Below, piece by piece: positions 5,959 to 7,128 of a DNA stretch of 10,416 nt. Where the stretch lies: contig JAILDR010000132.1 of the NCBI GenBank assembly GCA_024689285.1, positions 1 through 10,416 of the forward strand, given 5' to 3'. A program made the position numbers and the translations under genes. The stretch is from Bacteroidales bacterium. GTDB lineage: Bacteria > Bacteroidota > Bacteroidia > Bacteroidales > F082. The stretch's first letter is position 1. Each line of letters opens with the position of its first letter. The notes under the pieces are model-generated. The model saw nothing but the letters and a program-made list of their open reading frames with translations, was not told the origin of the DNA and ran no database searches.

Positions 5959-7128
5959 TTAAAACTCGGGTCTTCTAATGGTTAGTCGTATAGCTTCGGG
6001 GTGATTTTGGACGAATAGTTCAGCGTTTTCTACAACGCAAGCGAGGTAACCTCCACCACCGGCACCAGGCATTTTGTAAGCAAGAACCTTGTCTTTATAT
6101 GCGTCGATATAGCTTTGAACACAACCTTGGATCATGGCAGGAAACATTGCTGTTTGGGCGTTGAAGCTATCGCGATAAGCCTCTGCAAATGCCGGCAAAT
6201 CCTCATGCATAATGGCGTTCCAGCAACGGTCTGCAGCATTGGCAAGAGCCTTCACTTTCGGTTCGGTGATGTCTTTGCCATCAACAACAGAACAACCTGG
6301 TTTGCGCGGCTCCATCGGAATCATAACAAGATGCTTCTCAAGCCATTGAAATATCCCTTCATCTTCGCAAGTCTCTATCTTTTCAGGCCAAAAATGGTTG
6401 TCATAATAATGACGGCACAATCCCGGTACGCAAATACCTATAGCGTCCTGCGCTCCACTGATGATGCCGTCCTCACGCTCAGGATGGTTCTCGAAGCAAA
6501 ACACCAGTCGCGCCAACATCTCAGGATCCATATCAGGTAACTTCAAAGGCCATATCCGCTTAATAATGTTTCTGGTGGAAGTTGAAAGTCCACATCTTTC
6601 ACGCACTTCAAAGGTTGGTTTCAGGCTTATCGTAAGAGCCCAACCAGGAGCATAACATGAAACGTAAGGCTGGTCTATCCAAGTGCCAGCCAGATCCAAT
6701 CGGGTGGGAATCGTACACAACTGTTCCTTGAGAGAAGTGCTGGAATGGGCTTCCAAGCCCTCATGCGGGTCACGCTTCAACACGATGTATTCCATGCCTC
6801 GCGTCTCGCAAAAACAGCGTTTTTCTTCGGAAGCACCATCCTCGTTCACAACCAAAATGTCTGGCTTCAAGAAATCCACCGTTGGAACAAAGTCCATTAT
6901 ACCACTACCGGCATTTATAAATGCATCCTTCACATAACGGATAGCTTTAACCATAAAAAGACGCTCTTTTTCATTATAGAGCGTCTTGTGGTTTTTGTAA
7001 TGCAGAATGGTGTCATCTGAACCTATACCGACATACAAGTCGCCATACTGTGATGCCTGACGGAAGAACTCGACATGACCGCTGTGCAATAGGTCGTAGC
7101 AACCGCTTACAAAGACTTTCTTGCTCAT
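5959..7128 (-). CDS. Bifunctional nucleotidyltransferase / GHMP sugar kinase fusion
   Basis: A 389-residue cytoplasmic fusion. Residues 1-137 are a TagD/RfaE-type cytidylyl/adenylyltransferase: the nucleotide-binding motif GCYDLLHSGH (9-18, HxGH at 15-18), NEKERLFMVKAIRYV (52-66, compare TagD) and SSTSLKEQL (129-137), the counterpart of the family's ISTT/ISTS ending. Residues 140-389 are a GHMP kinase of the HddA/fucokinase type: motif 1 IPTRLDLAGTWIDQP (140-154), a motif 2-like GLSTSTR (180-186), SGAQDAIG (224-231, compare GGWQDQxGG in fucokinases) and motif 3 MPGAGGGGYLA (353-363). The spacing from motif 1 to motif 2 is only about 30 residues, so the kinase domain is compact. Its start overlaps the fcl stop (ATGA), implying coupled translation. 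A kinase plus nucleotidyltransferase beside gmd, fcl, FucP and a mutarotase suggests salvage of free fucose to a nucleotide sugar, like Fkp. Alternatives are another 6-deoxysugar or heptose, or an inactive kinase domain. Confidence 0.85.
   Translation of the reverse strand: MSKKVFVSGCYDLLHSGHVEFFRQASQYGDLYVGIGSDDTILHYKNHKTLYNEKERLFMVKAIRYVKDAFINAGSGIMDFVPTVDFLKPDILVVNEDGASEEKRCFCETRGMEYIVLKRDPHEGLEAHSSTSLKEQLCTIPTRLDLAGTWIDQPYVSCYAPGWALTISLKPTFEVRERCGLSTSTRNIIKRIWPLKLPDMDPEMLARLVFCFENHPEREDGIISGAQDAIGICVPGLCRHYYDNHFWPEKIETCEDEGIFQWLEKHLVMIPMEPRKPGCSVVDGKDITEPKVKALANAADRCWNAIMHEDLPAFAEAYRDSFNAQTAMFPAMIQGCVQSYIDAYKDKVLAYKMPGAGGGGYLACVVENAELFVQNHPEAIRLTIRRPEF
7125..7128 (-). other. ATGA start/stop overlap coupling fcl to the fusion gene
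   Basis: On the minus strand the four bases ATGA hold the start codon of the nucleotidyltransferase/kinase gene (7128-7126) and the TGA stop of fcl (7127-7125). This arrangement typically gives translational coupling and is the strongest positional link between the fusion protein and GDP-fucose synthesis. Confidence 0.9.

Follow-up and report, generated by a model that had tools for sequence, protein, structure and literature searches.

The 10,416 nt of contig JAILDR010000132.1 of a Bacteroidales bacterium (assembly GCA_024689285.1), the whole of which is called the window here, carry on the minus strand at positions 5959-7128 an intact gene with an ATG start, encoding 389 aa, that we named X. 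Its product fuses an HxGH-type nucleotidyltransferase (residues 1-137) to a GHMP-type sugar kinase (residues 138-387), and we consider it, with a probability of roughly 0.7, to be a bifunctional L-fucose salvage enzyme that was assembled independently of Fkp, the GDP-fucose-making enzyme of Bacteroides fragilis. The sequence-only reading, which gave no strand, had raised X as a possible non-orthologous Fkp. By sequence comparison this idea now appears well supported: canonical Fkp, when sought in genomes of X relatives, passed in none of 109, fucose loci recur around X, the pocket residues are retained except for Thr602 of Fkp, and the two enzymes separate in trees. The substrate and the nucleotide are still inferred.

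A chance or artefactual open reading frame (ORF) is ruled out by the homologues of X, which are full-length and numerous (at least 8000 proteins; identity of 85-100% among the 120 matches listed). The fusion is a conserved Bacteroidota family found in organisms that include Odoribacter, Mariniphaga, Sunxiuqinia, Prolixibacteraceae, Dysgonamonadaceae, Flavobacteriaceae and Segatella copri, and its members carry generic source annotations such as 'adenylyltransferase/cytidyltransferase family protein' or 'cytidyltransferase-like protein'. A plasmid search returned weak nucleotidyltransferase matches only (4 records, <38% identity). No description of the family was recognised in the literature searched, one result set of which was available in part, and the terms nucleotidyltransferase and cytidylyltransferase have 0 occurrences in the main text of a study on Fkp evolution (PMC12732313).

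Domains and active sites of X

The fusion read from the letters was borne out by family models, by profile alignment with hhalign and by the predicted fold. Residues 7-101 match PF01467 with 51.7 bits (cut-off 21), the domain scores 53.9 bits against TIGR00125 (cut-off 27.7), and the HxGH motif is HSGH at residues 15-18. In a structure model built from a 111-row alignment (an earlier model from 14 rows was poor, with a predicted local distance difference test score, pLDDT, of 51.3), the nucleotidyltransferase superimposes on 1coz with 1.9 A over 125 residues, and the solved nucleotidyltransferases that match it best mostly use CTP (TagD, PCYT2, Fom1) or resemble heptose adenylyltransferases. 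X shares the HxGH fold with the TagD-type proteins of this superfamily and differs from them in its fused kinase, in falling below the cut-offs for TagD (TIGR01518, 36.9 vs 165.4 bits) and for the heptose-1-phosphate adenylyltransferase RfaE-II (TIGR02199, 45.2 vs 181.5 bits), and in the stretch V94-N95-x-D97-G98, which is present in 33 of 33 aligned X proteins; inspected by eye, 15 TagD- and HldE-like rows carry a Gly in that stretch (KGxD, GDDW, AKGPD).

In the nucleotidyltransferase tree, X groups (91/93) with a sister class of fusions of about 449 aa (L123-L127; P0241-P0360), found in Bacteroidota and in one record named Fibrobacteres, apart from the same 15 rows (14 regions had been chosen, two were without an ORF and three earlier loci were added). 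Because X and the sister class stand apart from the TagD- and HldE-like rows, the nucleotide is not readable from relatives, and choosing it from this tree gave no outcome. The idea of a CDP- or ADP-linked product may be drawn, by analogy, from the HxGH superfamily only. If X is a fucose salvage enzyme, we would give GTP an even chance, CTP a clearly smaller one, ATP a smaller one still and any other nucleotide the smallest share, so that a GDP-linked product is a guess.

The kinase half goes unrecognised by Pfam (GHMP_kinases_C, 13.5 bits, cut-off 21), the same model giving 18.7 and 20.3 bits in the relatives L131 and L132 and 37.7 bits in the sister-class protein L125. Residues 304-368 match the C-terminus of the Fkp kinase (NF009948, E 1.5e-7) and residues 327-372 match 9iip (E 6.3e-8), the whole protein scoring 29.5 bits against NF009948 vs a cut-off of 721. 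Compared as profiles, the X and Fkp kinases align with a probability of 99.5% (E 5e-22) in global and 99.0% (E 3e-18) in local mode, and the domain has the GHMP fold in the structure model. Some close X relatives (P0102/P0103 and L054) have extra segments inserted in frame into the kinase C-lobe, with many VESLEFRVES or VQGSRVQEFKG repeats, just after an MFPAM stretch near X residue 333.

For Fkp, the accessible part of a published study (PMC11982464) assigns fucose binding and kinase catalysis to Arg592, Trp599, Asp601, Thr602, Ser719, Ser720, Glu751, Gln761 and Asp762, with backbone contacts at Gly717, Gly759 and Ala900. Equivalences were taken from the Fkp of L088, which differs from the residues given in that part at one of 17 positions (645, Leu in L088 and Met in the paper), and the X counterparts are, in order, R143, W150, D152, Q153, S184, T185, E213, Q227 and D228. 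Across the 16 of 33 X rows that were compared (the Fkp row L090 was left out), R143, W150, D152, S184, E213, Q227 and D228 are kept in every kinase; position 185, Ser720 in Fkp, is Thr and in some rows Ser, and with Q153 in place of Thr602 one residue of the fucose pocket is lost. The W150 position is Gly in 11 of 11 heptose-kinase-like rows, a label that was assigned from the motif.

An odd feature of this domain, not noted in the sequence-only reading, is its shortened lobe. Motif 1 is separated from motif 2, the glycine loop, by 37 residues in X and by 47 in the sister class (counted in 15 of 16 and in 7 of 8 rows, respectively, since the search pattern missed one row in each set), compared with 101-102 in the heptose-kinase-like rows (n = 11) and 123 in Fkp (n = 7). 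Between these motifs X is shorter than Fkp by about 86 residues, in the region to which the Fkp-ATP model assigns most contacts with adenine. That model (PMC11982464) has the base contacting Asp644, Met645, Pro666, Ile669 and Leu722. In the alignment nothing in X pairs with Fkp positions 644 and 645, the pairing of 666 and 669 with Thr172 and Val175 is loose, and Leu722 corresponds to Asn187. This apparent loss of most of the adenine segment, together with the presence among the fold matches of ForT, a GHMP-fold enzyme with phosphoribosyl pyrophosphate bound, would fit a kinase half that is dead or serves as something other than a kinase, such as a sensor for sugars or a transferase that uses a different donor, X then being only a nucleotidyltransferase for fucose-1-phosphate made elsewhere. 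The screen of X genomes for fucokinases covered Fkp, which leaves room for a separate one. We regard a dead or repurposed kinase as improbable, given that all 16 X rows retain D228, S184, E213 and R143 and that the adenine contacts of Fkp are modelled, not seen, so another pocket is possible in X. With its metal-binding residues and base retained, X is still likely to transfer phosphate, and R178, R186 and W193, invariant in 33 of 33 aligned X proteins, may be candidates for a new donor site.

Genomic context and co-occurrence with fucose genes

In the window, X lies within a tightly spaced minus-strand run in the order gmd-fcl-X-fucP-mutarotase, which comprises the following features:

8068-9150, minus strand: gmd, above the TIGR01472 cut-off (568.3 bits, cut-off 415)
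7125-8066, minus strand: fcl, GDP-L-fucose synthase, its stop overlapping the X start (ATGA); best match of NF047922, slightly under the cut-off (478.1 vs 500 bits)
5959-7128, minus strand: X, fused HxGH nucleotidyltransferase (residues 1-137) and GHMP-type sugar kinase (residues 138-387), 389 aa
6718-7128, minus strand: sub-segment of X
5962-6717, minus strand: sub-segment of X
4612-5919, minus strand: fucP, L-fucose:H+ symporter, above the TIGR00885 cut-off (539.8 bits, cut-off 280.4)
4261-4584, minus strand: PF05336 mutarotase (97.3 bits, cut-off 23.4), of a family named for L-rhamnose mutarotase and with a putative role in fucose use

The coupling of X to fcl and its position ahead of fucP and a mutarotase had been claimed before and hold: gmd and fcl are 1 base apart, fcl and X overlap by the 4 bases ATGA, and 39 and 27 bases separate X from fucP and fucP from the mutarotase gene. 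On the printed strand the fcl/X junction reads GCGATGAGC, in which the ATG of X overlaps the fcl stop codon. Judged by this spacing, the run from gmd to the mutarotase gene may form a single transcript; scans for promoter-like sites (11 vs 7.3 expected) and terminator-like sites (4 vs 5.2 expected) were uninformative.

The association with fucose genes recurs in relatives. In 64 of the 80 close loci (71-91% identity), X has fucP, the mutarotase gene, gmd or fcl within 6 kb, as it does in 40 of the 48 in which both flanks exceed 6 kb. These 48 loci have fucP in 28 cases (27 of them on the same strand as X), the mutarotase gene in 32, gmd in 23 and fcl in 22, with gmd or fcl in 23. The chance rate can be estimated at a few per hundred loci, given a handful of such genes per 2-4 Mb genome. 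At distant loci (37-60% identity), 12 of 30 have at least one fucose gene within 6 kb; a 31st, L158, was without an X ORF. The 37% outlier L130 adjoins fucP and a mutarotase gene as well as a further gene, which we take to resemble GDP-mannose pyrophosphorylase. Two relatives, L131 and L132, are triple fusions of 593 and 592 aa in which an N-terminal PF05336 domain (E 1.5e-20 and 2.9e-21) precedes the nucleotidyltransferase and the kinase. Because a rhamnose/fucose-type mutarotase domain here shares the polypeptide, these proteins support a free 6-deoxysugar as the substrate; such fusions in relatives were beyond the reach of the sequence-only reading.

Some loci weigh against a role in fucose salvage: 8 of the 48 close loci, including both from S. 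copri, have no fucose gene within 6 kb, and neither do L131 and L132 apart from their own mutarotase domain. As a rule, close homologues do not sit in loci for other sugars that lack fucose genes, the pattern named beforehand as speaking against the idea. That X is a heptose enzyme, pairing a heptose-1-phosphate kinase with a heptose-1-phosphate nucleotidyltransferase and standing beside fucose genes for another reason, is very improbable: W150 is present in 16 of 16 X kinases vs Gly in the heptose-kinase-like rows, the two fall into separate clades, fucose genes recur, and no heptose gene was recognised by eye among 27 neighbour families of the 80 loci, for which no family-library search was made. 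We consider it quite improbable that X acts on another sugar that would share FucP, the mutarotase and a galacto-type pocket (L-galactose or D-arabinose), or on L-rhamnose. The accessible part of PMC11982464 reports that B. fragilis FKP also takes D-arabinose and L-galactose, and the name of PF05336 points to L-rhamnose, but gmd and fcl are GDP-fucose genes, the window's fucP scores above the cut-off of the FucP model, and W150 and D152 match fucose contacts.

A fucose role for X is further suggested by its distribution across genomes. Fkp (NF009948) was above its cut-off in 0 of 109 distinct X-bearing genomes, composed of 0/24 and 0/50 genomes of X loci (together 74 of the 80 genomes of close loci, relatives of the window genome) and 0/37 from a sample of 295 Bacteroidales genomes, with two genomes shared; 1 of 14 control genomes passed in each screen, and this genome is taken to be Bacteroides ihuae. 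The 295 genomes were sampled from the order to which an S. copri genome belongs. Full-length X (a full-length match of at least 45% identity, E 1e-106 or better) occurs in 37 of them and canonical Fkp in 24; six genomes with the sister class at 30% identity were excluded from the X count, and none of these is in the Fkp list. Two genomes, G035 and G199, have two X copies each (50% and 48%, and 49% and 39%, identity to the window protein). Short X-like matches in the Fkp genomes G134 and G278 were rejected as X, being stand-alone 134-aa TagD-like proteins with no kinase remnant in the stretch examined; such stand-alone nucleotidyltransferases, 37-43% identical to the X domain, lie in two Fkp-bearing genomes at L133 6353-6763 (minus strand) and L134 6371-6772 (plus strand).

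Over all 295 genomes the mutual exclusion of X and Fkp is borderline (both in 0, 3.0 expected, p 0.054, kinship and genome completeness ignored). Within 93 of the 100 fucP-positive genomes, which were used for the fucP analyses, X occurs in 34 and Fkp in 18, with no overlap (Fisher p 1.8e-4, again with kinship and completeness ignored). The transporter gene was found in at least 34 of 37 X genomes vs at least 59 of 258 others, and in at least 18 of 24 Fkp genomes. FucI is above its cut-off in 23 of 37 X genomes, and 13 of the other 14 have fucP; one of the 14, G190, contains FucI fragments. Among the 30 genomes with fucP and no FucI above the cut-off, X is present in 13, Fkp in 8 and neither in 9.

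Relation to Fkp and other fused sugar enzymes

X and Fkp have in common the order of nucleotidyltransferase then GHMP kinase, the catalytic and most fucose-contact residues of the kinase, and fucP as a genomic partner, and the two were never found in one of the 295 genomes. They differ in size (949 aa for Fkp vs 389 aa for X) and in the pyrophosphorylase, as the sequence-only reading had said: in Fkp it is an alpha/beta domain with a beta-helix, whereas residues 1-137 of X are of the HxGH type, without an Fkp-type beta-helix domain. The X kinase, with about 86 residues fewer from motif 1 to motif 2, also belongs to a separate clade. X and the sister class lie on one side of a branch of the kinase tree (100/99), and Fkp, the heptose-kinase-like rows and a 1112-aa class on the other; long branches meet at this split, so the deep order is unsure. 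A recent derivation of X from the Fkp kinase is unsupported, since the tree places X with the sister class and Fkp elsewhere. Taken together, the two trees give X little resemblance to an Fkp that has recently exchanged a domain, as far as sequences can tell.

The sister class resembles X in its domain order, its short lobe (spacing 47), the retention of W150, D152 and D228, and its grouping with X, which is strong in the kinase tree and weaker in the nucleotidyltransferase tree. It differs in having only about 27% identity to X and no fucose gene within 6 kb at any of the 5 loci examined. The heptose kinases HddA and WcbL are set apart from X by Gly at the W150 and D145 positions, by the spacing of 101-102 vs 37 and by their separate clade. 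The organization of X also resembles that of HldE, which likewise combines a kinase and an HxGH nucleotidyltransferase in one chain toward a nucleotide sugar, but with the opposite domain order (HxGH match at 342-406 of 475). The HldE kinase belongs to the PfkB superfamily, unlike that of X.

A reverse order was also observed in four ORFs of 1108-1112 aa (L171-L174, in G187, G285, G154 and G280), in which a GHMP-type kinase with a GGGWQD motif comes first and forms its own clade. Their second part presumably resembles UDP-sugar pyrophosphorylase, making them another possible bifunctional sugar enzyme.

Flanking the fucose genes of the window are three further ORFs. Upstream of gmd, 9277-9891 (minus strand) gives a weak DNA-deoxyinosine glycosylase match (TIGR04274, 34.8 bits vs a cut-off of 80). 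At 9913-10416 (minus strand), an ORF truncated by the window end combines a DUF559 domain (4.2e-14) with a region weakly resembling the C-terminus of a sugar-nucleotide dehydratase/epimerase (0.0036), with TPSPSGEGLGE between both parts, which may reflect an in-frame insertion or a rearrangement. Convergent with the fucose genes, 3-4247 (plus strand) is a 1414-aa ORF, open at the window edge, which we take to be an alpha-2-macroglobulin-type protein.

A putative second route to activated fucose

In the route that we propose, FucP would import L-fucose, the PF05336 protein would equilibrate its anomers, and the C-terminal GHMP domain of X would phosphorylate the anomeric hydroxyl to give fucose-1-phosphate, with D228 as the putative base, S184 and E213 holding Mg2+, R143 stabilizing the transition state, and W150, D152 and Q227 holding the sugar. 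The N-terminal HxGH domain would then transfer a nucleotidyl group from a nucleoside triphosphate to fucose-1-phosphate, releasing pyrophosphate, and the resulting nucleoside diphosphate (NDP)-fucose would most likely join the pool of GDP-fucose formed from GDP-mannose by Gmd and Fcl.

A salvage reaction with CDP-fucose, ADP-fucose or another non-GDP product, forming a second fucose pool for a dedicated fucosyltransferase or a non-glycan use, appears doubtful. It would agree with the mostly CTP-using or heptose adenylyltransferase-like nature of the closest solved nucleotidyltransferases and with a gmd that is under its cut-off in 6 of 37 X genomes (above it in 31, read from best E-values, and in 174 of 295 overall). 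Against it stand the coupling of X to fcl in the window, the presence of gmd or fcl at nearly half of the 48 close loci, and the replacement by X of a GDP-fucose maker, all of which point to a shared pool; in the accessible parts of the literature searched, CDP- or ADP-(L-)fucose had no matches and UDP-L-fucose was mentioned once.

Taking the salvage reading of X further, we tentatively put forward, with the odds still against the whole of it, that X represents a second route to activated fucose, one that evolved independently and is at least as common among Bacteroidales species as Fkp (37 vs 24 of 295). Here the HxGH half would make a fucose nucleotide sugar, and the kinase would be a pared-down one without the classic adenine pocket, either binding its donor in a new way through X-specific invariants such as R178, R186 and W193 or using another donor in place of ATP. 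Some lineages would have mutarotase, kinase and nucleotidyltransferase in one polypeptide, a complete enzyme from free fucose to NDP-fucose.

Bifunctional sugar kinase/nucleotidyltransferases are already known as a kind, and it is the stripped kinase lobe that is odd and could prove more unusual. If our reading is true, X would offer a natural test of a GHMP kinase losing its adenine-binding segment and, at 389 aa, a small tool for making fucose nucleotides. According to the accessible part of PMC8698959, Bacteroides fucosylates capsules and glycoproteins, and a B. fragilis mutant without both GDP-fucose routes was outcompeted in mouse colonisation. Fucose salvage is read from the presence of Fkp: the same part of PMC8698959 uses the absence of Fkp from Tannerella forsythia to argue that deletion of fcl suffices to abolish GDP-fucose synthesis. 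In the accessible part of PMC8275744, the authors' BLAST found no fucose salvage enzyme in their organism. If X does the same job as Fkp, salvage would have been overlooked in many genomes scored by Fkp alone, including that of Segatella copri.
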